Below are positions 9,347 to 27,013 of a stretch of DNA of 32,515 nt, in pieces. This DNA is from Candidatus Shapirobacteria bacterium. GTDB taxonomy: Bacteria; Patescibacteriota; Microgenomatia; UBA12405; UBA6130. Where the stretch lies: the NCBI GenBank assembly GCA_027039485.1, contig JALWDZ010000014.1, forward strand, positions 1 to 32,515. The letters run 5' to 3'. The position numbers were made by a program, and so were the translations under genes. The notes under the pieces are model-generated. The model had not been told where the DNA came from. It did not search any database and worked only from the letters and a program-made list of their open reading frames with translations. Positions within the stretch are counted from its first letter, which is position 1; each line of letters begins with the position of its first letter.

Positions 9347-10051
9347 TTAGTTTTTCTTAAGAAGGTATAGTTTAAATCCACCGACAATTTTCACCATTTG
9401 CCTTTTTGATATTAATCCTATTGGGAGGTGAGCCAAGCGAACTAGTTCAAATTTTTTTGATGAGCGTTTTGGCATAGCTATAAATTTTGATTTAATAATT
9501 TTCCATCCGTTTTTCTCGAAAATTTCATCTAGTTGTTTTTCATTATAGTGATGGAGGTGTCCATACCTTATTTCAGTATCTTTCCAGGGATCAAAAAGTT
9601 CAGTTATTTTTAACAGCCTGTTTATTAAGGAATCTTCTAAGGGGACCTTTATTAAAATATAATTTCCTATTGATCTTAATTTCTGAACAAACTCTATATC
9701 TTTTTCTAAATGTTCAATAATATCTGCGCAAATAATGAGGTCGAATAGTTTGGCTGGAGTCTTGTAGTTAAAGATATTCCCGATTCTCCACTTGACAATT
9801 TTCTTTTTATCTAGCTCTCTTGCTTTTCTGATCATCGCTGGAGATATATCTAAACCTTCTATATACGTTGGCTTGAGTTCCTTGGCAATTAGGAGGGTAA
9901 CTAAACCTGCGCCGCAACCAATATCTAAGATTCTTTTAAATTTAGTTTTCAGGTTCATAGGAATAATGGAAAGGAGTTCCTTAGCCTTTGTTTTAGAATG
10001 TTCTAGGTGTAATGTTGGATTTTTTAGTATGTATTCTTTTTTATAGTCCAT
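9347..10051 (-). CDS. Class I SAM-dependent methyltransferase
   Basis: A 234-aa protein with a Rossmann methyltransferase core. Motif I is ILDIGCGAG (41-49), the acidic end of strand 2 is GLDIS (66-70), and DLIICADIIEHLE (104-116) is the motif IV/post-IV region typical of Methyltransf_11/23 enzymes. The substrate is unknown; its place at the end of a glycosyltransferase operon suggests a sugar or lipid-linked glycan, by inference only. It starts 8 bases after the stop of the HprK-like gene, so it is the last gene of the minus-strand operon that begins at 14859. AT-rich composition matches the block. Confidence 0.85.
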   Translation of the reverse strand: MDYKKEYILKNPTLHLEHSKTKAKELLSIIPMNLKTKFKRILDIGCGAGLVTLLIAKELKPTYIEGLDISPAMIRKARELDKKKIVKWRIGNIFNYKTPAKLFDLIICADIIEHLEKDIEFVQKLRSIGNYILIKVPLEDSLINRLLKITELFDPWKDTEIRYGHLHHYNEKQLDEIFEKNGWKIIKSKFIAMPKRSSKKFELVRLAHLPIGLISKRQMVKIVGGFKLYLLKKN

Positions 10052-10059
10052 AAACGGTA

Positions 10060-10968
10060 CTATTCTGTTTCCTTGATTAGTTTATTAACTTTCTTTAGTA
10101 TGCCAGAAATATCTCCTTTAATCCAATAAAACTGGACGTTTCGCGCTACTTTTTTACTAAACTTCGAGCGATGATAAGCTATTTTTGCCGAGTCTATCGA
10201 TTCTAATGGAACAGAAAAATTAATGATTCTTCTGGAAGTTCCCCTTATCTTTCTAGAGAGTTCTTCATAAAAATGAAAGTCTGCTTTTTGCGGCGACCAC
10301 TTCTCTATTTCTAGCTCTCCACCTTTTGATACTAAGGGTTGGATAACCAGAGAGAGTTTTGCGGGTTTTTTCTCTATTAAGAAGTATTTTTCTAACTTTT
10401 CTTTATTGGCCAAGTTTATTTTTTTCTCTAGGTAATTAGACATTTGTGGCTTATTAAAGGAAATTTGCTTGATGCCGCCGAGAATAAATAGATTAAAGTC
10501 TATCAAGATTTTCTCGTCACCGATGAATTTATACTCGTGTTTTGAGCAGAGATTTATTGCTAGAGATGTTTTTCCCAGACCGCTTACTGGACCAATGATT
10601 AATATTGCTTTTCCTTTCCAGCTTATTGCACTACCGTGAACACAGTATATTCCCTCTTTCTGCCTGATGTATTCTAAAAAATAATCAATTAGGGTGATTA
10701 GGTCATTAATGTGCTTTTTTGGCTGAAAATTATAACCTAGATATAGTTTTTGTTTTTTTATTTTAAAGTAGAATTTCTTCGATTTCTTAATGTAGAGAAG
10801 ATATTTAGTCTTTGAATTTTTGTCTTTCTTGTCGAGAGGGATGTTGACTTCAGGGATATATTGATACAAAAAGCCTGATTTTATTAGTTCACTTTTGACT
10901 TTTGTGTCACTGTGTATATTTATGCATGTTTTTGAGGAGCAAATGGTGAATTTATCGACGATTTTCAT
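10060..10968 (-). CDS. HPr-kinase-like P-loop protein
   Basis: A 302-aa protein. The central part (108-165) matches the HprK-related kinase pattern: VHGSAISWKGK, then IIGPVSGLGKTSLA (125-138) as P-loop, then FIGDEKILI (148-156). This is the pattern of 'HGSAV...GPSGSGKST...GDD' proteins found beside peptide- and glycan-modification genes. The first glycine of the strict GxxxxGK spacing is a proline here (P127, with G126 just before it), and the usual Asp pair is DE. ATP or GTP binding is likely; kinase activity on a small molecule or protein is inferred. The N-terminal 100 residues and C-terminus are not recognisable. Its 5' end overlaps the GT4 gene by 17 bases. Confidence 0.72.
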   Translation of the reverse strand: MKIVDKFTICSSKTCINIHSDTKVKSELIKSGFLYQYIPEVNIPLDKKDKNSKTKYLLYIKKSKKFYFKIKKQKLYLGYNFQPKKHINDLITLIDYFLEYIRQKEGIYCVHGSAISWKGKAILIIGPVSGLGKTSLAINLCSKHEYKFIGDEKILIDFNLFILGGIKQISFNKPQMSNYLEKKINLANKEKLEKYFLIEKKPAKLSLVIQPLVSKGGELEIEKWSPQKADFHFYEELSRKIRGTSRRIINFSVPLESIDSAKIAYHRSKFSKKVARNVQFYWIKGDISGILKKVNKLIKETE

Positions 10969-12106
10969 TTTTTTCTGAACTTACTTCTATTAATACTTTT
11001 TCTAGTTTTTTAATAGAATGTTTCCATGTCCATTTTTGAAGAATTGTCTTTCTGGCATTAAATCCTAACTTGTAGCGCAGTTCTTGATTAATTAAGAGTT
11101 TTCTGATGTTTTTATATAGCGAATGAGAGTCTTTTGGTTTGACCAATATCCCATTCATTCCATTTATAACGAAATCTTTCATTCCACAGCAATCAGAGGT
11201 AATGATTGCCTTTTGGGTTGATGCTGCTTCAAGCATTGTTGTTAGCACCCCCTCTTTTTTATAAGAAGGGAACACGCATAATTTGCTTCTCTGGTAGTAG
11301 TTGGGAAGTTCTTCATTTTTAATATACCCGATTAACTTAATGTTTTTATAAAGATTGTATTGCTTAATTAAAAATTTGATTTCTTTTAAAAATGGCCCTG
11401 CTCCCCCTATTACTACTCTGACTTTAGAAAATCTCTCTTCTTTGCGTAGAAAATTGATTGCTGGAATTAGAAACTGAAGGCCCTTTATTTTAATTAGGCG
11501 CCCCACATAGAGGACGTCGATATCTTCCAATTTTTTCTCATCTTTATTTTTTGGAGAGAACCTTTTTTCGTCGATTCCATTATGTATGACCGTTATATTC
11601 TTGATTCCAGACACCTCCTCCCATCCTTTCGCCACCGACTCACTGACGGCAATCAATTTATCTGCTACACGTAATGCAACTTCATCTGCAATTTGCCTTT
11701 TTTTAGGAACTCCGTGCAGAACAAGTAATTGCTTAATAGATTTGGGTATGGCAATAGCTGCTGGTGCGTAATGGGTGATTATTATGTCAAAGTGATTTTG
11801 GTTAAGGTAAGAGGATATCCAGCGACCCAAAGAAAAATAAAGTCTGTGTCCTAATTCATGGCTCAGCGTCATCCTTTCTATTCCTTTTATCGGATTCGGG
11901 GCAGAGATGAAGTTAATTTTGCGATTATTTTTCAGAAAATCAGAAAATAAATCACTTTTTTGCGCAGTGCTTAGTGTAATTAGGGTTACTCGATAACCAA
12001 TTTCGCTTAAGCATTTTGCCTGCATTAGGGGCACTACTTCTCCCCCGCCGACAAAAAAGCTTGCTGTTGGTATGTAAATGCAAATTTTAAGTCTTTTCTC
12101 CTTCAT
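10952..12106 (-). CDS. GT4-family glycosyltransferase (GT-B fold)
   Basis: A 384-aa protein. The N-terminal acceptor domain starts with ICIYIPTASFFVGGGE (8-23), the glycine-rich loop of GT4 enzymes. HNGID (175-179) and VLYVGRLIKIKG (198-209) begin the C-terminal nucleotide-sugar domain. The EX7E motif is present as E285...E293 (KEGVLTTMLEA). It probably transfers a hexose from a nucleotide sugar to a cell-surface glycan or lipid carrier at the inner face of the membrane. It follows the NDK-like gene by 6 bases and overlaps the HprK-like gene by 17, so it is in the same operon. Confidence 0.92.
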   Translation of the reverse strand: MKEKRLKICIYIPTASFFVGGGEVVPLMQAKCLSEIGYRVTLITLSTAQKSDLFSDFLKNNRKINFISAPNPIKGIERMTLSHELGHRLYFSLGRWISSYLNQNHFDIIITHYAPAAIAIPKSIKQLLVLHGVPKKRQIADEVALRVADKLIAVSESVAKGWEEVSGIKNITVIHNGIDEKRFSPKNKDEKKLEDIDVLYVGRLIKIKGLQFLIPAINFLRKEERFSKVRVVIGGAGPFLKEIKFLIKQYNLYKNIKLIGYIKNEELPNYYQRSKLCVFPSYKKEGVLTTMLEAASTQKAIITSDCCGMKDFVINGMNGILVKPKDSHSLYKNIRKLLINQELRYKLGFNARKTILQKWTWKHSIKKLEKVLIEVSSEKNENRR

Positions 12107-12112
12107 TAGTTG

Positions 12113-12805
12113 CTATCTTGGACTATACCTACTAATAAATCCCTCAATAAGTATTCCTCGAGATGCCAGTTCTTCAATATCCCACTTGCTCAGGATAACG
12201 GAAAGGGCTCTTGCAGTTTGTTCGGGAGTATCAGCGAAATGGATGACGTTATTTAAAATTGTTCTTATTTTATGATAGTATTCCTCTTCTGGCATTTCCT
12301 CTAGTCTATCCGGAGGGATAAATACGGACGGAGGGGTCAGAAGTCCTCTTATGCCCTTTCCTACAGTTTTAATTCGACCTTCTTGGTCTATTAAGCAAAC
12401 GTTTCCTTTAATTCTGGGAAATATTTCATAAATATTGAAATCATCAGATCTGAGTAGGAAAAAAATAACTTCCTCAGAGAGAATATCAAGGAGATAAGGG
12501 TAGAAACGTTTACCTTTTGCTTCTTGGTAAAATATGTCCCTAAGTTTAGTTGCTTTTTCGGTATCTAGTCTTCTCATTATAGTTTTCACTATGGTGATTC
12601 CGAAATCTTCTGATGGTCTTAGTCCAAGGCCACCTTTGATATAGTAGTCTACTAGCGGACTACAGGTATTAGTTGCTTGTTCAAAGAGAATTCTAATTGG
12701 AACGTCTAATCCTTGCTTTAATGATTCTGGTTTTATCATGGCGAGGCCAATTTCTTTTTCTCTAAGCATTTTGTTTCTATATCTCTTGGTCCAGTAACTT
12801 GTCAT
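12113..12805 (-). CDS. Nucleoside-diphosphate-kinase-like protein, divergent
   Basis: A 230-aa protein whose parts line up with NDK. EIGLAMIKPESLKQG (18-32) is the first strand with the Lys, GKRFYPYLLDILSEEVIFFLL (98-118) corresponds to 'KPFF..LVEFMTSGPVV..VL', GIRGLL (151-156) carries the Arg, and NNVIHFADTPEQTA (185-198) matches 'N..HGSDS.E.A', keeping the catalytic His as H189. It is longer than NDK (about 140 aa) owing to insertions at about 42-70 and 157-180. It may be a phosphotransferase or a non-catalytic nucleotide-binding relative. The ATG at 12803-12805 overlaps the GT2 gene by 29 bases; a second ATG at 12767-12769, just before the NDK part and 7 bases after the GT2 stop, is an equally good start. 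Confidence 0.7.
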   Translation of the reverse strand: MTSYWTKRYRNKMLREKEIGLAMIKPESLKQGLDVPIRILFEQATNTCSPLVDYYIKGGLGLRPSEDFGITIVKTIMRRLDTEKATKLRDIFYQEAKGKRFYPYLLDILSEEVIFFLLRSDDFNIYEIFPRIKGNVCLIDQEGRIKTVGKGIRGLLTPPSVFIPPDRLEEMPEEEYYHKIRTILNNVIHFADTPEQTARALSVILSKWDIEELASRGILIEGFISRYSPR

Positions 12806-14339
12806 ATAGCTTTAGATTACTTTCCAACTCTCTTTGCTTCTTTTTTTCTGACCCTGACCTTGGAGGGTGGTTGATATGGTAGACTCCAGTTGAAAGTACC
12901 GGGATAACAAAGTTTCCGTCTGCTATAACTCGTGCGCCAAAGAATGCATCTTCCATGCCCCATCCGGAAAAGTAATTAGAAAAAAATCCCGATTTTATTA
13001 TTGTTTTTCGCTGTAAGCTCATATTGTGTCCCACTACCATCGATGGCAAGTCGAAAAGACCTATATGTCGCCCGTAACCCAAATTCTTAAAGTAATTTGA
13101 TTCATTTAGCATTTCAATATAACTATCAACAGATAGTTTATACAGTCCTTTTTTTTCTTTGTGGATAAATCTAGAAAATCTTATATCATCATAGTTCTCC
13201 GGTGGTTTGACTCCTGTCTGAATTCTTTTAATGTTAGTTAATTCGGATATCCGATCTATATTTTTCTTGAAACTAAGAAAGATTGCATCCGGGAACATTC
13301 TTGCCCTTACTGAGTGCTCGAGGAGGTAATTTTGGCCTATAATTATATCCGAGTCCAGGAATATTATATGCTCGTTGCTAGCAAGATTTACGCCGATATT
13401 TCTCGCCGAAGACAGGCCTTGATTCTTCTCTAAGCGGATAATCTTGATTCGAAAAGTAAAATTTTTGATTTCTGGATATATTCTTTTTGCCGCTGGAATT
13501 TCTGAACCATCATCAACAACAATTACCTCCACCTCTTTGAGTAACTTCTTTGGTAATTTTTGGGCTTCTATAGAATAAAGTGTTTGGAGGATAGTATCCT
13601 CACTGTTAAAGCAAGGTATTATTATTGAAATTGGCTTAAACCATTTTACGGTTTTTATTTCTTTTTTCCCTACCAGTTTAGTCTTTGTTATTTCTTCGAA
13701 AGCGCTTTCATAGCAAGAGTAATCATTTGATATAGCCGTTAAGCGAGAACGCAAAGTTGGATTAGCGGCACTGATGTCAAATCCTAGCTCTTCCAAGTTC
13801 AACCTTATTCCGGCATTTAAAACGCCGAGGCTGTCAAAAAGTGGCTTAAGATCGGTATTCTTATTTTTCTTTACTAAAATTTTAATGTCAGAATCGTTGA
13901 GAAGCTTGAGCCGGAACCTTTTTGCTAAGTGCAAAAATTCCGTTTCACAACTCTTTGCTTCGGTACATTCGACCACATCTCCAATAAAAGTGTTCCTCAT
14001 TACTAAAATACTCCCATTGTTCACGGGAAATTCGTATACCAATATTTTCCCAAAAGTACACTTTGTGAAACCTAGAGAAAGAAGTGTTTTTAGCAGGGTT
14101 TTAGTATTTTTATTTTCTATGACCATCGGTTTTAGATATTCAGGAATCCCTGGATCTACCAGTTTTAATTGGCACTGTTTTTTATAAAAATGAAGGTGTA
14201 TTTCTTTATTATCTTTGCCAAATGTAAAAATAGAAAATTTCCTTTGAACTACAGGAGGGCCAAATTTTTGAGTCAGAAATTGAATTACTGATCCCGAATT
14301 ACCGATAATTACCGCTTTTTTGGAACCTGTTTTGTTCAT
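12777..14339 (-). CDS. GT2 glycosyltransferase with a CYTH-like N-terminal region
   Basis: A 520-aa protein. The C-terminal half is a GT-A family 2 enzyme: ISIIIPCFNSEDTI (237-250), EVIVVDDGS (271-279), GLSSARNIG (308-316), the DSD metal motif (329-331) and a late GWGMEDAFFG acceptor motif. The N-terminal 160 residues resemble a degenerate CYTH/triphosphate-tunnel domain: a strand-rich stretch with alternating charged residues, LLKTLLSLGF (82-91), KILVYEF (98-104) and GDVVECTEA (120-128), where CYTH proteins have 'K.R.Y' and 'EIE'. This second assignment is inference. The ATG (14337-14339) follows the Nudix stop by one base. It is the second gene of the operon. Confidence 0.85.
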   Translation of the reverse strand: MNKTGSKKAVIIGNSGSVIQFLTQKFGPPVVQRKFSIFTFGKDNKEIHLHFYKKQCQLKLVDPGIPEYLKPMVIENKNTKTLLKTLLSLGFTKCTFGKILVYEFPVNNGSILVMRNTFIGDVVECTEAKSCETEFLHLAKRFRLKLLNDSDIKILVKKNKNTDLKPLFDSLGVLNAGIRLNLEELGFDISAANPTLRSRLTAISNDYSCYESAFEEITKTKLVGKKEIKTVKWFKPISIIIPCFNSEDTILQTLYSIEAQKLPKKLLKEVEVIVVDDGSEIPAAKRIYPEIKNFTFRIKIIRLEKNQGLSSARNIGVNLASNEHIIFLDSDIIIGQNYLLEHSVRARMFPDAIFLSFKKNIDRISELTNIKRIQTGVKPPENYDDIRFSRFIHKEKKGLYKLSVDSYIEMLNESNYFKNLGYGRHIGLFDLPSMVVGHNMSLQRKTIIKSGFFSNYFSGWGMEDAFFGARVIADGNFVIPVLSTGVYHINHPPRSGSEKKKQRELESNLKLYDKLLDQEI

Positions 14340-14340
14340 T

Positions 14341-14859
14341 TTATTTTGTCATTCTAGAGCGGAAAAATAAAAATAAAAAAATTTCAAGCATTTGTTTATT
14401 ATCGCCCCTTTCCTCTAAAAGTTTTATACATTCAGTCTTTGAGAGGACACTTCTTCCTAGGGTTTCTCTCATCTTCCAGTTCTGATAATCTATTGAGATA
14501 ACCTCTGATTTTGTAATGGGGAGAATTGATATTTTGGGATAAGAACTATATTTGAGCCCCTTTATGTTTTCAACCAAGATGTATCCATACACTTTTATAC
14601 TCGATAGAGCTATTTTTATGCCTGCTTCTTCATAGTTTTCTCTGATTAATGCCTCTTTCCATGTTTCACCTTCTTCTATATGTCCCCCAACAGGGTTCCA
14701 CCAGCCGTTCTTATCTTTTATAAGGATTATCTTATTTTTATATACTGGAAATGTAAAAGGTGTTGTGATTGGGTACTCTGGCAGCGATTTGGCTGGATAG
14801 AATTTAGATTTTGATATAAATTTACCCTTGATTAATAAGTATTCAGAAAATTTTTTCAT
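14341..14859 (-). CDS. Nudix hydrolase
   Basis: A 172-aa Nudix-fold protein. The Nudix box is complete, G59 to I81: GHIEEGE, seven residues, then RENYEEAGI. The metal-binding glutamates (E74, E77, E78) are present and an Asn replaces the usual hydrophobic residue after RE. The substrate (nucleoside diphosphate linked to a sugar or other moiety) cannot be told. It is the first gene of the minus-strand operon. The ATG (14857-14859) lies only 7 bases downstream of TATAAT and has no Shine-Dalgarno site, so the transcript may be leaderless. Confidence 0.9.
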   Translation of the reverse strand: MKKFSEYLLIKGKFISKSKFYPAKSLPEYPITTPFTFPVYKNKIILIKDKNGWWNPVGGHIEEGETWKEALIRENYEEAGIKIALSSIKVYGYILVENIKGLKYSSYPKISILPITKSEVISIDYQNWKMRETLGRSVLSKTECIKLLEERGDNKQMLEIFLFLFFRSRMTK

Positions 14860-15015: not shown

Positions 15016-15525
15016 ATGGAAGAGCCTATCAGTTATGCTATGAATTGGTTCACAGCCGATGAAATTGGAGAAGACCATCGGCACTTGCCTGTTACTCAAG
15101 TTTATGTTTGGATCGGAACAGCTGATCATAAATTGGTTCTAGTTTCGGCTAAACCGGGCCGCTGGCAATTTCCTGGTGGGCATCCAGAGAAGGGCGAAAC
15201 TCTATTGGAAACAGCCATTAGAGAGGTGTTTGAGGAAACTGGCCTCGACATCAGCCGGGAGAAAGGGAATTTGCGTTTTTTTGGCTATTATCTCGTTGAG
15301 GAAAAACAGGGAGGGAAAGTGATCAAAAGATATCTCCAAGTAAGGTATTTTCTTCTTCTGAGAGAAATGTCTGAAAAAGTTAAGGTTTTTGTCAACGAAA
15401 GGGAAAATGAAGAGAGAAAAGTTAATAATGTCGGCGTATTTTCTTTAGCAAAAGCATACCAACTAATTCCCTGGCTTTCTACTGCCCAAGAACTAGCCGT
15501 TTTTAAAGAAAAAGTTGGCTGGTAA
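15016..15525 (+). CDS. Nudix hydrolase, divergently transcribed
   Basis: A 169-aa protein with a perfect Nudix box, G55 to L77: GHPEKGE, seven residues, then REVFEETGL. The surrounding WQFPGG and FFGYYLVEE strands are typical of the fold. It is clearly different from the Nudix protein at 14341-14859, so this is not a recent duplication. It is one of only two convincing plus-strand genes in the window. It has a strong AGGAAGGAG ribosome site, unlike the divergent operon. The substrate is unknown. Confidence 0.92.
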   Translation: MEEPISYAMNWFTADEIGEDHRHLPVTQVYVWIGTADHKLVLVSAKPGRWQFPGGHPEKGETLLETAIREVFEETGLDISREKGNLRFFGYYLVEEKQGGKVIKRYLQVRYFLLLREMSEKVKVFVNERENEERKVNNVGVFSLAKAYQLIPWLSTAQELAVFKEKVGW

Positions 15526-15657: not shown

Positions 15658-16167
15658 ATGGTAATAAAAAATACAAATATTAGCCCTAAAGAGATGGAGT
15701 TTGGGGCGAAAATCGATTCCCCCGAGAAAGTAAAAGCGATTTTACGCTCTATCCCAAAAGTAGTTAATAAAACTACCCTTTTGATTACAAGCGAGATTTA
15801 TAAAAAGAAGGACGGCAATTTTTTCTGGCGTCTAAATAGAATCAAAAACAAGAAAAAAGTATTCTTGACCCTCAAAGAGGACCTATTAAACCAAAATAAT
15901 AGCATGGCTGAAGGAATGAAGGAGGCAGTCGAAGTTAATCTAACATTAAACTCAACCCAAGCCAAAGTAATAAAAAGAATCATTAATCTTCTCGGTTATC
16001 AACTGACAAAAATTATTAAAAAAAGAAGAATAATATATCAATTGCCAGACGCTCAAATTACTTTAGATTTTTATTACCAAGAAAAACAGTGGTATCTAGA
16101 AATAGAGTCTCCTAGCAAAAAGGAAATTCTAAAATTAAAGAAAATAATTTACGACAATAATTACTAA
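15658..16167 (+). CDS. CYTH-domain (triphosphate tunnel) protein
   Basis: A 169-aa protein with a CYTH-fold layout: N-terminal EMEFGAKI (12-19, ExE...K-like), WRLNRIKNKKKVFLTLKED with alternating basic residues, GMKEAVEVNLTL, LLGYQ...KKRRIIYQL, ITLDFYY and finally WYLEIESPS (EIE). This matches class IV adenylate cyclase / thiamine-triphosphatase-like enzymes that bind triphosphates in a beta barrel. The actual substrate is unknown. The ATG is preceded by AGGA (15651-15654). It lies 132 bases after the Nudix gene in the same direction, so the two may share a transcript. AT-rich. Confidence 0.75.
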   Translation: MVIKNTNISPKEMEFGAKIDSPEKVKAILRSIPKVVNKTTLLITSEIYKKKDGNFFWRLNRIKNKKKVFLTLKEDLLNQNNSMAEGMKEAVEVNLTLNSTQAKVIKRIINLLGYQLTKIIKKRRIIYQLPDAQITLDFYYQEKQWYLEIESPSKKEILKLKKIIYDNNY

Positions 16168-19532: not shown

Positions 19533-22331
19533 TTACCACTCAAACACCTCAACTATATTTTTAATTGCTTTTTTAACTTTTTGAATAATATTTTCCTGTT
19601 CCAAAAGCCCGACTTTGCGGGGTACAAGATCGATAATATCATCACTTAGAGGCATCTTTTGAGTATATAGATATTCGCCAATCATATTATGTAAATCTTC
19701 TACGCTAATACCGACTTCGTCTGCCAATTTCTTGATTTTCCTTGTTCTTTCTTCGTCCCAAAACATCTTAAAAGCCTCCTCAACATCATCTGGATGCCGT
19801 ATTTGGGGCAAATTTTCTTCTATAAATTTGCGGATAAGCTCCCTCTTTTTCCTAAGCTTGATATCTCTGTCCAAAATATTCAAAACTTCCTTGGTACGTC
19901 TCTTTCTTATTCTATCTGACTTGATGCCCTTCAAACCGATAAGAAGTTGAATTATATAATCAAAATTAATTACATCTCTTACTGTCAGTTCCAATTCAAA
20001 GTCAATCTCATCTAGAATTGATTCCTTTTCGGGGCTATTTTGTTTTACTCGTTCATAGACATCCAGGTACTTGCTTTGATAATCATAAAATTCCTGTTCG
20101 GTAATGCCCAGATCTTCCCAACTAAATTCTGCAAAAGTTTCCAGAGAAGATTTTATTCTTAGTAAATCTCTAAAGGTTTTAACAAAATTAGCTAATTCCT
20201 GCTCCCCTTTTAAAGTGTCAACATCTTTTGGCGTTAAGACTTGGCTTTTTAGTTCAACCAGTTTAGCTTGGAATTTCTTGCGTTGTTCTTCGTATGGTTC
20301 CTTGATAACTATTTCTTTTGCATTTTCATCGCCAAATAAGGCTAATGCTTCGTCGGTAGCTTTTTTCAAGTTTCGAAAGGAAACAATATTCCCGTGAGGT
20401 TTGCTAGAGTCTAAAATTCTATTAGTCCGGGAGTATGCCTGGATGAGGCCGTGATAACGAAGATTTTTATCAATAAAAAGAGTATTAAGCAAGGGGCTGT
20501 CAAAACCTGTCAAAAACATATTAACTACTAAAACTAAATCCACTTCTTTGCTTTTTATCCTCCTTTGTAAGTCCTTGTAATAGTCATAAAAACGATCTGT
20601 AGAAAAGTTTGTTCCAAAATCCTGGTTATAATCTTTAATACATTCTTCTAAAAAGTCACGGGAATGTTTATCCACTGTTAAGGTAACTTCTCCAAAGGCA
20701 TCTACTTCTAAAGTGTCGCTACTCATTTCTTCATTAGCGTAATAGGTAAAAATAGTGGCCAACTTGAAGTTTTCTGGTTTTTTAGCTTTCAACAAAGTGT
20801 AATATTTTTTTAGAACATTAATGTTAGAAACAGCAAAGATAGCATTAAACCGGCCGCGCTTAGTTTTTCTTTTCCAATCAGTTAAGACATAATCGGTGAT
20901 CTTGTTTAACCTGTCTTCACTCTCCAAGACCTCTTGTTTGTCAATATCAAAAACATCAACATCGGCAAGAATATCTTTTTCTAGAACGTCCGGAGTTTTC
21001 TGTTTATATTTGCCAACATATTCGACCACGAATCCCAAAACATTTCCATCGGCAATAGCGTTAGTGATAATGTATCTATGTAAGCATTTGTCAAAAACAT
21101 CTTTAGTGGTAACCCCGCCAACATTATTTTTGGCAAAAATAGGAGTACCAGTAAAGCCAAATAGTTGCGCCTTTTTGAAAAAGGAGCGGATTCTTTTATG
21201 AGTTACACCAAACTGGCTCCGATGGCATTCATCAAAGATGATAACAACTTTTTCATTGGCTAGATGGGCAAATTTTTGGCGATAATGCTCTCTACTAATA
21301 GCAATATCCAATTTTTGGATGGTAGTAACGATTAACTTTCTTTTCGGATCAGCTAATTGCTTTACTAGCGCGCGAGTATTATTTGTGCCATCCACGGATC
21401 CTTCAGAAAAAGAATTAAATTCCTTAGTGGTTTGAATGTCCAAATCCCTACGGTCAACCACGAAAAGAACCTTTTTAATTTCCGCTCTAGATTTTAGCAC
21501 CTGGCTAGCTTTATAAGCAGTTAAGGTCTTTCCAGAACCAGTGGTATGCCAAATGTAGCCGTTTTTATTGCTTTCAGCTGCCCGTTTTTCAATTGCCCGA
21601 ACAGCATAGTACTGATAAGGGCGAAGCAACATAGGGATATGTCTAGCTTCTGCCAAAACAATATATTCGCCAATGAATTGGGATAGAAAACATTTTTCTA
21701 AAAATACATCAGCAAAATCAGCAAGTTTTGTAATTTTTCTATTCCTTTCGTCAGTCCAGAAAAATGTTTGGGAAAAGCTTTGTTTGGGATTGTTGGCAAA
21801 ATATTTGGTATTAACGCCATTGGAAATAACAAAAATCTGAATGTATTCAAACAAGGTGCCAGCAAAAGAATGTTTGCTGTAACGTTTGATCTGATTAAAA
21901 GCTTCTTTAAGCTCAACTCCTCGCCGTTTGAGTTCTATTTGGACTAATGGTAAACCATTGATTAAAAGAGTAACATCGTAGCGATTTTGGTATTTACCTA
22001 CCTGGGTAATTTGGCGGGCAACTTGATATTCGTTTTTACACCATTCGTGCATGTTAAAGAAACGTACATAAAAATCAGACTCGTCATCGCGCTTAAGAGC
22101 AAAGCGATCTCGCAAAGTGTGGGCTTTGGTAAAGATGTCGCCTTTTTCTAGGTGGTTTAAAATGCGTTGAAATTCTTTGTCGGAAAAATGAGTGCGATTG
22201 AACTTTTCTAGTTGGGTTTTTAAGTTAGCGATCAAGGCTTCTTTGTCCGGAAGCGTCACCGACTCAAACCCCAACCGATTGAGTTGTTTGACCAAAGTTG
22301 TTTCTAGGTGCTGTTCAGATTGATGAGGCAT
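19533..22331 (-). CDS. hsdR: Type I restriction enzyme, R (motor/endonuclease) subunit
   Basis: A 932-aa HsdR that translocates and cuts unmethylated DNA in complex with HsdM and HsdS. The PD-(D/E)xK nuclease site is complete as D119, E133 and K135 (QIELK), with the same 14/16-residue spacing as EcoR124I. Helicase motifs are Walker A TTGSGKT (263-269), DECH (367-370) and FGFTGTPIF (motif III region). A long helical C-terminal part binds the methylase. All catalytic residues are present, so the enzyme should be active. It follows the HEPN-like gene by 14 bases. Confidence 0.96.
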
Positions 22332-22345
22332 AAAGTTAATCTATT

Positions 22346-23134
22346 TTAATTAAAACTATCAAATTGTTTTATATGTTTTTTAACTACTGGCGCTAGTAGG
22401 TTGTAAAGCTGGTTTAACATTGCTATAAGATTCAATCTATTTTGCTCTAACTCTTTCTTTTTCAATTTTATGTAGAGTTTGTAACCTATTTTTGCCGATA
22501 GCTTCATCAATTGAACATCTCTATTGGGCGTTATTTTTGCCGCCATCTCGAACAATTCTGCGTTTTTCAGCCTTTCATTTCTTTCCTGTAACTTAATTTT
22601 GTGTTTAATTTTGTTTTGCAACCGACGAATACCTTGCAAGCTTTTGTCGATGTTGTTTAAGGCAGCTACAACTTCCCTTTTCACGTTTTTATTGTTTGTA
22701 ATTATATCTTTAGTAACGAACCTATCTGCTAGTCCTAAGTTAAAAATATAATTAATTAAGTGTAGAACTCTATCGTATAGGGCAATTACGTTTATGTAGT
22801 AGAACTCGAGATGATATATGATGTAGTCGTGTCTAGTAAATTCTTTTTGTATTTTGTTGCTAGCAGAATAATTACCGATAAAAAGCTCTGATAAGTAAAG
22901 ATCTCTGATCTTAACCTCAACTTCTATTATGTGTTCTACTAACTCAAAAATGTATAAATCTTTTTTAGAACTGATTGGTTTTCTTCCTCCTAAATCTACC
23001 TTTGCATATTTCTTTACTATATCAACCATCATGGGTTCGATAAGTTGGCTTAAATCATTGTCTTTTATAAAAAATGATGATGGTGAATTGTTTTCGTTTT
23101 TACTATTGGTTTTTAATCTCTTTATTTTCTTCAT
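22346..23134 (-). CDS. HEPN-like helical protein of unknown function in the RM operon
   Basis: About 262 aa from the ATG at 23132-23134; an in-frame TTG at 23234-23236 would extend it to 296 aa but has no ribosome site and overlaps the previous gene. It is almost entirely helical, with EFYYINVIALYDRVLHLINYIF followed by helix LNNIDKSLQGIRRLQNKIKHK. The last contains R-x6-H (R171 and H178 in the 262-aa form), which fits the HEPN RNase Rx4-6H motif. It somewhat resembles Cthe_2314-type HEPN proteins. If correct, it would be an RNase-type effector or a relative used in phage defence. Family assignment is inference. Confidence 0.55.
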   Translation of the reverse strand: MKKIKRLKTNSKNENNSPSSFFIKDNDLSQLIEPMMVDIVKKYAKVDLGGRKPISSKKDLYIFELVEHIIEVEVKIRDLYLSELFIGNYSASNKIQKEFTRHDYIIYHLEFYYINVIALYDRVLHLINYIFNLGLADRFVTKDIITNNKNVKREVVAALNNIDKSLQGIRRLQNKIKHKIKLQERNERLKNAELFEMAAKITPNRDVQLMKLSAKIGYKLYIKLKKKELEQNRLNLIAMLNQLYNLLAPVVKKHIKQFDSFN

Positions 23135-23189
23135 AAATGTTTCTTTATCACATATTTCTTCAAGTTTACATTTGATAAATTTGTTATCA

Positions 23190-24248
23190 TTAGCAATGGA
23201 TTTGGCCTTTAAAATTGACAAAACTTTGCAAAACAATCATTGTTAAATTAAGAACAAATAATGCGTCTGATTGCGTAGCTTGACCTTTTGAAGGATGAGC
23301 GTCTGTTTTCTTTTGCCTTGATTTGGCAAGAAAGCTGTCAATATTATCGTATAAGCTCACAATCGGTTTACTATAGGGGATAATTTGTTGTGATTGTGCT
23401 TTTGTAAGTAATTTGCTTAAACTTTCTTTTTTACCAATTTTACCATGTATTTCTAGTTGTAAGTAAGCATGTATAGCATTTATTGAATTTTGAATAACTT
23501 TGTCGAATTGTTTTGCTCTAAAATCTTTAAAAGCTTTCCCCAACATTAAACTTACATCCGCATACTCTTCCGAACTCAAAACCTCTAAAGTTGGAGTGTA
23601 AATATTGTCTACAATTTCTTTAGACTGACGTGGTACAAAACCTTGTCTTGTTAGAATTACATATACCCCAAAATGCTCAAAAACATCATTCAAATCATTT
23701 GCAAATTCATCAAATTCTTCCCATCTCCACCCTTCAACTCTCTTTACAAAATCTTCTTCTGACTCGTTTTCTTCTTTCTCTGGTTTTTGATCAAAGCGTT
23801 CTAATATAATTGCTTTTGCATAAGCAGAAAGCAATTCGAAAGTAACATTTTCGGAGCTAAAGAAAAGTCTATAAAAATCATCAAGGGCATTAATAGATGA
23901 GTCATTTTCTAAAAATTTACGGGCATATGATTTAGCTTTGTATCTATTGTTTAAATATACTACAGCACCAATAATACGGAAAAGCTTCTTGAGATATTCA
24001 CGTCTTTTATCTGAAGGATACCTTTTAAAGGAATAAAAAATATTTGATAAGTTGTCTTTATTCACATGATGATAAGATAGGTAATTTTTCGAAAAAAACC
24101 ACTTTTTCCATAGATATAACCATATTTTCTTTTTCTCATCATCTAATAATTCATTCCAGCTCCTAAAACCAAAGTTAGGTTTTAGTTCTTTGAGTGCATT
24201 CTTGTTTATTTGAGACCAAAGCTTAAATTGTATTTTTTTCTTTTTCAT
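23190..24248 (-). CDS. Abortive-infection (Abi_C/HEPN)-like protein in the RM operon
   Basis: A 352-aa protein. The C-terminal 120 residues look like the Abi_C/HEPN group: a helix KDFRAKQFDKVIQNSINAIH, then SLYDNIDSFLAKSRQKKTDAH with R311-x6-H318, followed by a final helix DALFVLNLTMIVLQSFVNF. In such proteins 'R...(G/D)AHG' is the RNase motif. The N-terminal 200 residues are helical, basic and unrecognised. The start codon overlaps the hsdS stop as ATGA (24245-24248), so it is translated with the RM enzyme. A back-up toxin that acts when restriction fails is a reasonable inference. Confidence 0.6.
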   Translation of the reverse strand: MKKKKIQFKLWSQINKNALKELKPNFGFRSWNELLDDEKKKIWLYLWKKWFFSKNYLSYHHVNKDNLSNIFYSFKRYPSDKRREYLKKLFRIIGAVVYLNNRYKAKSYARKFLENDSSINALDDFYRLFFSSENVTFELLSAYAKAIILERFDQKPEKEENESEEDFVKRVEGWRWEEFDEFANDLNDVFEHFGVYVILTRQGFVPRQSKEIVDNIYTPTLEVLSSEEYADVSLMLGKAFKDFRAKQFDKVIQNSINAIHAYLQLEIHGKIGKKESLSKLLTKAQSQQIIPYSKPIVSLYDNIDSFLAKSRQKKTDAHPSKGQATQSDALFVLNLTMIVLQSFVNFKGQIHC

Positions 24249-25444
24249 ACAAACATCCTTTGCATGAGACCTTTTTTCCAGGCCTTTGCCTTTTTAATTT
24301 GTAACTGCTTAGATTCTATCACTTGATCGATTTTGCTCAAGAAATCGGCAACTTTGCGTTGTTCTAGGAGAGAGGGAATTTTAATCTTTTCTCTAGAGTA
24401 ATCTTTAAAATAAATGTGAGGAATAGTACTGCCACTGGTGTATTTTCCTAGCTTGATTTTTTTCAACAATAGGTATATAAAATACAGGTTTATATTCCCT
24501 TTCGGAAATATTGCATCCATAGTTCCCAAAATAGATGTTTTTGGCTGACACATTAAAACCCTACCCACCCCTGCGCCATCCTTCACAATGGAGATATACT
24601 CGGTGCCATACTGGTAATAATTTATTTTCTTTAAACTACCATTCGCGCCATATACTATGTAATTTCCTTTATTCCCTGCCAACGAGTTGGCAGAAATACC
24701 AGATGACCTTTTGTTGCAAACTTCTCCCAACCTCTTTTCTTCCCACTCTCCACTAAACTCTGGAAAACGAAGTCGGGGAATGGACTCGCCTTTGGCGGGA
24801 AAGAGTTGTTGCATTAAACCTTTTTTGTATTCTTCCCATTTTTCTTTTTGTTTTTTGAGGTTTTCTATCCACTCATCCACCATGCTTAAAAACTGAGCAA
24901 TTTTGCGCTGTTCTTCTTTCTGGGGAGGAATGATAATCATCACATCGTTAAAAAAATCACTAGCAGACATATTTAAAAGTCCGTGATTTCGTGCACCTTC
25001 TTGTGTTATTTTTGCTATTTCTCTATTGAGTTTTCCCGCATTAAAATATTGGTCAAAAAAATCACCTAAGTGGTTTCGATCTCGTAAGCCAAAACAAATA
25101 TACAAGGTTGACACTACACCCTTTGCGTATTTCTTAAGTTGTTTGATTGCTCCTACAGGATGCCCCTTAGAATAACTTCTGTTGTATGCAAATTCTCCTT
25201 TAAGTAGCAAATAATATCCAGATAAATCTTTAGCTGCCACAGATTTTGTAAAAAAATTTTCTTGATTTATTAATCCTTGTTGAGCAGATATTGTTAAAAC
25301 GTTTTGGTTGCCCTCTTTATTTTTGCGCGTTATCCTTTCAAAAACTTCTCCCAGTTTCTTTACATCCCATTCCCCCCTAAACTCTGGAAAGCGGAGGGTG
25401 GGAACTTTTGGTTTATTGTTTGATTTTTGTTGCGTATTGTTCAT
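24245..25444 (-). CDS. hsdS: Type I restriction enzyme, S (specificity) subunit
   Basis: A 399-aa HsdS with two target-recognition domains, each opened by the same motif. PTLRFPEFRGEWDVKKLGEV is near residue 15 and PRLRFPEFSGEWEEKRLGEV near residue 223. Each domain is closed by a coiled-coil spacer: PQKEEQRKIAQFLSMVDEWI and LLEQRKVADFLSKIDQVI. The two TRDs determine the two halves of a split recognition site, which cannot be deduced here. The gene starts 3 bases after hsdM stops and its TGA overlaps the next gene. The duplicated motif is also repeated at DNA level (24720-24779 and 25344-25403). Confidence 0.95.
   Translation of the reverse strand: MNNTQQKSNNKPKVPTLRFPEFRGEWDVKKLGEVFERITRKNKEGNQNVLTISAQQGLINQENFFTKSVAAKDLSGYYLLLKGEFAYNRSYSKGHPVGAIKQLKKYAKGVVSTLYICFGLRDRNHLGDFFDQYFNAGKLNREIAKITQEGARNHGLLNMSASDFFNDVMIIIPPQKEEQRKIAQFLSMVDEWIENLKKQKEKWEEYKKGLMQQLFPAKGESIPRLRFPEFSGEWEEKRLGEVCNKRSSGISANSLAGNKGNYIVYGANGSLKKINYYQYGTEYISIVKDGAGVGRVLMCQPKTSILGTMDAIFPKGNINLYFIYLLLKKIKLGKYTSGSTIPHIYFKDYSREKIKIPSLLEQRKVADFLSKIDQVIESKQLQIKKAKAWKKGLMQRMFV
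24720..24779. repeat. hsdS internal direct repeat, copy 1
   Basis: About 60 bases that align with 25344-25403, with identical runs such as ACTTCTCCCA and CTAAACTCTGGAAA. They encode the RFPEFxGEW module before each recognition domain and give a homology site for shuffling of specificity domains. Confidence 0.7.
25344..25403. repeat. hsdS internal direct repeat, copy 2
   Basis: Partner of 24720-24779 in the same orientation, encoding the first RFPEFRGEW module of HsdS. Confidence 0.7.
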
Positions 25445-25447
25445 TGA

Positions 25448-27013
25448 TCAAAATGGTGTTTCGATATTAAGTTCTTGGCAAAACTTGGCAATTTGGTTTT
25501 GGATTTGTTTTTCTTCTGCTTGGAGTTGTTTGAGATCTTGGGCAACAGCAGAGATATCAACAGGCTCTTCCTCTTCAAAAGTATCCACATAACGAGGAAT
25601 GTTGAGATTAAAGTCATTTTCTCTGATTTCATCTAGAGTAGCTCGGTGAGAATATTTGTCGATTTCTTTGCGTTCTATGTAGGTTTGGAAAATCTTATCG
25701 ATATTGGCATCGGTAAGGTAGTTTTGGTTTTTACCCTTTTCAAACTCACGGGAAGCATCAATGAAAAGAATGTCACCATCATCTTCTCTGCATTTTTTGA
25801 ATACGGCAATAATGGCAGGAATAGAAGTGCCATAAAACAGATTTGGCGGCAAACCAATAATGGCATCAAGATAGTTTTGTTTTTCGATAATGTATTGGCG
25901 GATAACTTTTTCAGCTCCACTACGGAAAAGAACACCATGGGGCAAAACCACGGCCATAGTGCCGTTGTCGGCTAAGTGATAGAGCATATGAGTGACAAAA
26001 GCATAGTCAGCATAACTTTTGGGGGCTAAGCGACCATATTGACTAAATCTTTCATCGGTAGCTAAAGTGGGGTCGGCATCACCTTTCCATTTGGCGGAAA
26101 AAGGAGGATTAGCAACAACCACCTCAAATTGTCGATCGCCAAATTTATCATCCATAAGAGTATCGCCATGGCGAATATCAAAGTTGCGATAGTGAATGCC
26201 ATGGAGAATCATATTCATGCGGGCAAGGTTATAAGTGGTGGGATTAAGTTCTTGGCCATAATAGTCAACTACTTCAGCAAACTCACCTATACGCAGCAAA
26301 AGAGAGCCAGAACCACAAGTTGGATCATAGACAGAACGGACTCTTTTTTTGCCATAAGTAACTATTCTGGCAATTAAACGAGACACCTGGGCTGGAGTGT
26401 AAAATTCACCACCCTTTTTGCCAGCATTGGCGGCAAATTGGCCGATCAAGTATTCGTAGGCGTCACCTAAGATGTCGCTTTGGGAGTTTTCTAATTCAAA
26501 ATCGATTTCTTGAAGGTGAGAAAGAATTTCCACAACTAGATCGTTTTTGGCTTTTTCAGTTTGGCCTAGCTTGATAGAAGTAAGATCAACATCGGAAAAA
26601 AGGTTAGCAAAGTCGTCCTCGCTTTCTGTGCCGGCGGCGGTTTGTTCAATGGCGTTGAGCACTTTCTTTAAATCTTCGAGAATGAAAGTGTCTTCACCCG
26701 GTATTTCGCCTTTGCCTTTTTTGACAAGGTATGAAAATAGTTGGGTGGGTTTAAGGAAAAATCCTAACTGCTCAAGCGAGCGACGGCGAATAATTTTTAA
26801 ATATTCCGGCTTAGTTTCGATAGTTTTGTCATAAATGATGTTGTCGGCTTCAAGCAGTTTATTAGCATGTTTTTCTTGTCGTTCAGAAAGGTATTTGTAG
26901 AAGATAAAACCAAGAATGTAATTTTTGTATTCATCGGCATTCATTTTGCCGCGGAGAAGATCGGCTATATTCCAAAGTTGTTGCTCAAGTTTTCTTTTCT
27001 GATCGCTAGTCAT
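25448..27013 (-). CDS. hsdM: Type I restriction enzyme, M (N6-adenine methylase) subunit
   Basis: A 521-aa HsdM. It has an N-terminal helical domain (about 5-140), the conserved GGEFYTPAQVSRLIARI entry to the catalytic domain (201-217), SAM-binding motif I DPTCGSGSLLL (230-240) and catalytic motif IV NPPF (302-305). The C-terminal helices contact HsdS. It is the first gene of the operon hsdM-hsdS-abi-HEPN-hsdR-GNAT, all in one direction with gaps of a few bases or overlaps, except for about 55 bases between the Abi-like stop and the preferred HEPN-like start. The 55 bases upstream separate it from the hypothetical gene before it; no clear promoter hexamers stand out there. Confidence 0.96.
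   Translation of the reverse strand: MTSDQKRKLEQQLWNIADLLRGKMNADEYKNYILGFIFYKYLSERQEKHANKLLEADNIIYDKTIETKPEYLKIIRRRSLEQLGFFLKPTQLFSYLVKKGKGEIPGEDTFILEDLKKVLNAIEQTAAGTESEDDFANLFSDVDLTSIKLGQTEKAKNDLVVEILSHLQEIDFELENSQSDILGDAYEYLIGQFAANAGKKGGEFYTPAQVSRLIARIVTYGKKRVRSVYDPTCGSGSLLLRIGEFAEVVDYYGQELNPTTYNLARMNMILHGIHYRNFDIRHGDTLMDDKFGDRQFEVVVANPPFSAKWKGDADPTLATDERFSQYGRLAPKSYADYAFVTHMLYHLADNGTMAVVLPHGVLFRSGAEKVIRQYIIEKQNYLDAIIGLPPNLFYGTSIPAIIAVFKKCREDDGDILFIDASREFEKGKNQNYLTDANIDKIFQTYIERKEIDKYSHRATLDEIRENDFNLNIPRYVDTFEEEEPVDISAVAQDLKQLQAEEKQIQNQIAKFCQELNIETPF

Follow-up and report, generated by a model that had tools for sequence, protein, structure and literature searches.

How does a domain of the CYTH, or triphosphate tunnel metalloenzyme (TTM), superfamily come to stand in front of a glycosyltransferase, and what could it be doing there? 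The question is raised by a gene on the minus strand (12777-14339) of a 32,515-nucleotide stretch of DNA, hereafter the window, from a Candidatus Shapirobacteria bacterium (contig JALWDZ010000014.1 of assembly GCA_027039485.1, our C14), which is one of the 27 contigs of a 695-kb genome estimated to be 97% complete. A reading of this DNA made from the sequence alone had proposed a GT2 glycosyltransferase fused to a degenerate CYTH domain. Its coordinates are correct, the strand had not been given, and the strings that it quoted as signs of CYTH are present at residues 97-104 (GKILVYEF) and 122-128 (VVECTEA). The frame is open for 520 residues without internal stops, while the plus strand across the same positions is riddled with them. 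That assembly or gene calling has merged two genes might be suspected from an assembly in 27 contigs, but the probability is practically negligible: this single open frame speaks against it and five other genomes, with the identical domain order, already refute it.

Identity of the N-terminal domain

From a single sequence the resemblance to CYTH could not be demonstrated, since residues 1-226 alone gave no Pfam match and no phmmer match in the PDB at E<=10; the whole protein or its N-terminus likewise gave no CYTH match against Pfam, NCBIfam, PHROGs or, with phmmer, the PDB. Profiles built from homologues did recover it. A profile of four N-termini matches the Saci_0718 triphosphate tunnel metalloenzyme (7ns8; E 0.0032, profile positions 6-170), and the best PDB matches of a six-sequence profile are 1yem (E 0.0033) and 2een (0.021), with 4cij (0.26) and 6cgh (0.3), not CYTH by name, ranking above 2dc4 (0.33). 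With the CYTH-like part alone, the order is 2een (E 0.0025), 1yem (0.015) and then 4cij (0.088). The three archaeal entries 1yem, 2een and 2dc4 are found among the CYTH/TTM structures in the Foldseek and VIA-align lists described below, and Pyrococcus orthologues cluster together with Saci_0718 (PMC8233210, in excerpt). The N-terminus of one homologue, from genome G307, matches 2een by itself (phmmer, PDB; E 5e-4). Finally, we ran the profile-profile comparison that had been put forward as a check: hhalign aligned the six N-termini over 97 columns (score 39.6, p 3.4e-5) with eight stand-alone CYTH proteins from related genomes, the window's own (15658-16167) included, whereas the same query scored 11.1 against Nudix (p 0.66), 10.9 against NDK-like (p 0.81) and 13.9 against methyltransferase controls (p 0.38). 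Sequence profiles hence place the domain in the CYTH/TTM superfamily, although PF01928 itself does not score.

The predicted structure leads to the same family. AlphaFold gave a mean predicted local distance difference test score (pLDDT) of 62, with core blocks up to 83, from an alignment of the N-terminal domain only, and a mean of 74, with N-terminal blocks up to 87 and a predicted template modelling score of 0.75, from the full-length alignment. In the latter model strands (E) and helices (H) follow one another as E9-12 H15-26 E30-40 E46-52 E55-61 E72-75 H76-88 E93-106 E109-117 E120-125 H129-141, that is, in the order b-a-b-b-b-b-a-b-b-b-a, and the predicted domain shows the eight-stranded antiparallel beta tunnel that defines the CYTH/TTM fold. 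This fold had been set beforehand as the test of the idea, and no other was seen. Ranks 1-11 of a Foldseek search against the PDB are all TTM/CYTH (best E 3.9e-4), as are the top 21 entries in VIA-align (Z 8.0-10.0), among them 2een (Z 10.0, 139 residues, 3.5 Å), SaTTM (9.5) and AtTTM3 (8.8). The Mediator subunits Med18/Med20, already known to be related in fold, appear from Z 7.7 downward, a range (below 8) in which, according to the tool, a match may reflect a common arrangement. A VIA-align run with the full model returned glycosyltransferase structures and did not probe the N-terminal domain.

Homologue profiles, hhalign and the matches of the predicted fold thus bear out the proposed fusion, and residues ~9-160 are, by profile and model, a divergent CYTH domain. 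That they form some other small beta fold, unrelated to CYTH, we regard as very improbable. The N-termini of the window, G074, G177 and G307 give no PF01928 match (the scan covered these four and left out G373 and G702) and the PDB profile E-values are no better than 0.0025-0.0033, but three kinds of sequence comparison agree with the fold search on CYTH/TTM and unrelated rows score lower.

Active-site residues and the transferase

ExExK, RxR and ExE are the metal- and phosphate-binding signatures of CYTH/TTM proteins (PMC8233210, in excerpt). We compared 11 tunnel and metal positions, by canonical residue class, in a merged alignment of the fusions and the stand-alone CYTHs, in which all six fusions have a gap at the strand 7 D column. 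Of the 11 residues, 2 are kept in the window copy, 0 in G702, 2 in G177, 4 each in G074 and G373, 9 in G307 and 7-11 in the eight stand-alone proteins. None of the three catalytic signatures is complete in the window copy. Its RxR arginines are replaced by H48 and H50 (HxH). The string VVECTEA does lie at the place of the EIE motif, as had been read, and retains E124, but the second glutamate of the pair is lost (T126). The absence of a clear N-terminal ExExK had also been seen rightly: the window protein has no D or E ahead of D43, which makes this motif impossible in any register. Taken with the model, these data show that residues 1 to ~160 derive from a CYTH domain whose predicted tunnel fold is kept and whose metal- and triphosphate-binding residues are lost. 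With the CYTH/TTM enzymes (PF01928; SaTTM Saci_0718, PH1819, Pfu-838710, AtTTM3, YgiF) the domain shares predicted fold, order of strands and helices, length and profile homology; it differs in the losses at all three motifs and in the GT2 attached to it.

This leaves the description of the domain as triphosphate-binding without support in the window copy, with its 2 of 11 tunnel residues, HxH, E124/T126 and no ExExK, and the proposal that it could trap or sense the donor fares no better with so few ligand-binding residues. The donors of GT2 enzymes are mostly diphospho-sugars, and a donor trap is unlikely for that reason too. G307, where ECELR stands at the hallmark place and the second motif reads EIE, looks like an ancestral, near-active state of the fusion, and the ligand-sensing idea may apply to this near-intact copy.

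Behind the CYTH-like part stands, as had been read, a canonical GT-A domain. PF00535 matches residues 238-339 with 87.2 bits (cut-off 23.3; E 1.6e-24), Glyco_transf_7C is at E 7e-4, below its cut-off, and D276-D277 (DDG), both D of DSD 329-331 and E463-D464 do not vary among the six CYTH-fused proteins. A PF00535 match above cut-off together with D-x-D makes the domain a GT2 of the GT-A fold, and judging from these motifs the transferase is intact. Its best structural match is the K4 chondroitin polymerase (Z 25.7, 235 residues, 3.0 Å, model residues 202-519), also matched by profile (E 7.9e-31), and polypeptide GalNAc-transferases come next in structure. The likeness to this Escherichia coli GT2 concerns the glycosyltransferase fold; chondroitin polymerases have two tandem glycosyltransferase stretches, whereas the 520 residues of the fusion hold one PF00535 stretch behind the CYTH-like domain.

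A similar SNDY linker motif and transferase domain are found in GT2s of G459, G615, G160, G220, G115 and G758 and in a Verrucomicrobia locus, L044, where the partner is a possible histidine phosphatase, a second GT2, a C-terminal extension (repeat-like by eye) or none. In G459 and G615 (L126/L228 9325-11139; L127/L229 164-1972) the SNDY-GT2 is fused to a different N-terminal domain, which is histidine-phosphatase-like by an RH motif and, in one of the two proteins, a PF00300 match below cut-off (E 0.037), an unproven assignment; these N-termini gave no PDB match. The SNDY-GT2 of the Verrucomicrobia metagenome-assembled genome (L044 4061-10010) lies near Nudix-like, GT4-like and GTP cyclohydrolase II-like genes, all by eye, and a weakly matched dTMP-kinase-like gene (E 0.033).

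Spread of the fusion and its gene neighbourhood

Among 95 genomes, only G074 besides the window's own has a match that spans most of the protein (36% across residues 64-516); in the rest the GT2 part alone is matched. A two-sequence profile added G177 and G307 from 373 genomes of the class, and a four-sequence profile added G373 and G702 from 379 genomes of the phylum, so that the whole CYTH-GT2 architecture is present in six genomes, the window's included. Further draws of genomes yielded no additional CYTH-fused member, and repeating the phylum search around G459 brought in no new genome. When we searched with the N-terminal domain only, 4 of 349 genomes matched strongly, all with GT2 fusions, and four weak matches (E 0.003-0.009) were taken as chance. 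In wider genome contigs a single-protein pattern scan found no relative, and a two-sequence alignment scan turned up L044, a better relative whose match starts at residue 196, together with numerous ordinary GT2s; in viral contigs, matches were confined to residues 184-417.

The transferase tree joins the window protein with those of G702 and G373 (support 99/98), both genomes of a different class within the phylum, while the fusion is absent from G001, G002 and G003, two genomes of the same genus and one of the same family that are 87-95% complete. In addition, the GC fraction is 0.32-0.38 across 9-16 kb of the window, with higher values on either side (0.44-0.52 at 1-9 kb, 0.51 at 17-19 kb). 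This AT-rich island, the grouping in the tree and the absence from close kin point to lateral transfer. On the same tree two changes are required to account for the CYTH-fused rows, with G307 apart on an open fork, and a single origin of the fusion is neither supported nor contradicted by it.

The fusion gene is embedded in a gene cassette (Table 1), which on the minus strand runs from Nudix through the fusion, NDK-like, GT4 and HprK-like genes to a methyltransferase, followed on the plus strand by a second Nudix gene and CYTH. The last of these is the stand-alone CYTH gene that the sequence-only reading had placed 1.3 kb away; it seems misaligned near RxR, and its count of tunnel residues is probably a lower bound. 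Across the six regions, where the window's own genes served as queries and are counted, GT4, HprK-like and NDK-like genes each occur in five, the methyltransferase and the same Nudix subfamily each in four (both at E<=1e-40), a HAD phosphatase in three and a stand-alone CYTH in two. This Nudix subfamily also adjoins the fusion in G177, G373 and G702. The NDK-like match in G074 is at E 2e-5 only, yet its Pfam NDK match is above cut-off. In the G307 region there is none of GT4, HprK-like and NDK-like; there the fusion (L227 9900-11543) adjoins a guanylate-kinase-like gene (PF00625, E 1.5e-13) in place of the cassette. Among 90 relatives, HprK-like matches at E<1e-100 are found in two, the window's genome (G000) and G074, which are the two fusion carriers there and whose E-values are inflated by their presence among the five sequences of the model; three others have weaker matches (1e-9 to 1e-21).

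Table 1. Coordinates of the fusion gene, its parts and its neighbours in the window
Feature	Positions	Strand	Remarks
CYTH-like/GT2 fusion protein	12777..14339	-	520-residue intact open reading frame; five full-length homologues elsewhere
Predicted degenerate CYTH (triphosphate tunnel) fold, residues 9-160	13860..14315	-	profile, hhalign, AlphaFold, Foldseek, VIA-align
VVECTEA, residues 122-128, place of the ExE motif	13956..13976	-	E124 retained, second E replaced by T126
Linker, residues 164-235	13635..13850	-	SNDY motif (204-207) ahead of the transferase domain
GT2 GT-A domain, residues 236-520	12780..13634	-	Pfam PF00535, invariant motifs, structure match
Nudix hydrolase, PITTPFTFP subfamily	14341..14859	-	1 nt upstream of fusion gene
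Enlarged NDK-like protein	12113..12805	-	29-nt overlap with fusion gene; conserved K25, GxGxRG, I188-H189
GT4 glycosyltransferase	10952..12106	-	cassette member
HprK-like P-loop kinase	10060..10968	-	cassette member
S-adenosylmethionine-dependent methyltransferase	9347..10051	-	cassette member
Second Nudix hydrolase	15016..15525	+	
Stand-alone CYTH protein	15658..16167	+	PF01928 28.6 bits (cut-off 23.2); 7/11 tunnel residues as aligned

The GxGxRG motif and the IH pair are kept in the enlarged and divergent NDK-like proteins of the window (12113-12805), L223 (11728-12366), L225 (13146-14036) and L226 (2731-3621), and a related stretch lies inside a 516-residue open reading frame in G177 (L224 10323-11873). 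A conflict or defence role, suggested by a match of the GT4 protein to PF20706 'GT4-conflict' (E 4.2e-7), was set aside, as general GT4 families match far better. Promoter and terminator scans stayed at chance level. Further along the window, a second AT-rich island (19533-27013, minus strand) encodes a type I restriction-modification system (HsdR, HsdS and HsdM by PADLOC models), in which the genes at 22346-23236 and 23190-24248, between HsdS and HsdR, have no PADLOC match.

What the fused domain may do

The explanation that we favour, and consider somewhat more probable than its competitors taken together, is that of a GT2 with a non-catalytic, CYTH-derived docking module, carried in a laterally moving glycoconjugate cassette. 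The transferase, nearest in structure to the chondroitin polymerase and polypeptide GalNAc-transferase group, would add a sugar to an acceptor. Its N-terminal domain, having kept the predicted tunnel fold and lost the metal- and triphosphate-binding residues, would most likely be non-catalytic, and would probably dock or position the acceptor or offer a contact surface to partners from the cassette. A precedent for a tunnel fold outliving its chemistry in the role of a structural subunit is provided by Med18/Med20, in which the fold is present and activity apparently lost (PMC4641920, in excerpt). Their resemblance to our domain is one of fold only (Z up to 7.7), and they are eukaryotic transcription subunits with no enzyme fused, whereas here a GT2 is attached. 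The cassette (Nudix, GT4, HprK-like, NDK-like, methyltransferase, sometimes a HAD phosphatase or stand-alone CYTH) would move laterally and probably build and phosphorylate a surface glycan or small glycoconjugate, a product that we guess from the enzyme set.

Several observations weigh against this explanation. The mean confidence of the N-domain-only model is low, and residues 380-435 of the full model have pLDDT under 50. The residues of the N-terminal domain that are invariant in the six members, G27, G90 and I119 only, outline no interaction surface. In G307 the copy is nearly intact and stands apart from the cassette, and weak anion binding may persist in the window domain, where E124 is retained along with a few basic residues.

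The last point bears on the idea that the fused CYTH still binds a phosphate ligand (nucleoside triphosphate, pyrophosphate or polyphosphate) and thereby regulates the transferase. The homologous fold, the retained E124, the 9 of 11 tunnel residues in G307 and the phosphate-handling Nudix, NDK-like and HprK-like neighbours speak for it, and so do plant TTM1/2, which are without ExExK and ExE, yet AtTTM2 is a pyrophosphatase in vitro (PMC8233210, in excerpt). These plant proteins are like the fusion in holding such a tunnel domain within a multidomain enzyme, but their partner is a kinase and W/YxRxR is kept, where the window copy has a glycosyltransferase and HxH. With 2 tunnel residues left in the window and none in G702, and no acidic residue before D43, we find phosphate binding improbable. 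Slightly less so, but still unlikely, is that the domain is a passive relic, or a solubility or stability domain, with no specific role: its identity to the window copy is as low as 19-27%, against up to 52% for the transferase part. However, six genomes from more than one class have retained it, its indels fall mostly between predicted elements, and small genomes would be expected to shed a domain without use. Along the lines of the docking module that we favour, one may go further and imagine that the mobile cassette, met here in bacteria with small genomes, makes a phosphorylated or nucleotide-derived glycoconjugate, and that its GT2 began fused to a working CYTH, near-kept in G307, which is now a tunnel-fold pseudoenzyme that directs the transferase to a phosphorylated acceptor or to the HprK-like or NDK-like partners; this fuller scenario is doubtful, if conceivable.

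The fusion partners reported for CYTH are HD hydrolase, exopolyphosphatase, nucleotidyl kinase, CHAD and phosphoribulokinase, and no glycosyltransferase is among those described in the same excerpt of PMC8233210. We found no CYTH-glycosyltransferase fusion described in the literature searched, which left most subscription journals outside. Another composite protein with CYTH, of 575 residues (L236 1489-3216), was met along the way. A CYTH match lies close to its C-terminus, and inspection of the translation by eye suggests a CYTH-like start and a P-loop kinase-like middle (GGSASGKTS), which would put a kinase between two CYTH-like parts.

The locus draws attention to a laterally moving cassette that recurs in several genomes and could be tested by expression. 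The CYTH domains known so far are phosphate enzymes, either on their own or joined to other phosphate-handling domains, and here one is found on a glycosyltransferase. The graded loss of its active site, from near intact in G307 to empty in G702, provides a natural series from an enzyme fold toward what would be a non-enzymatic module.
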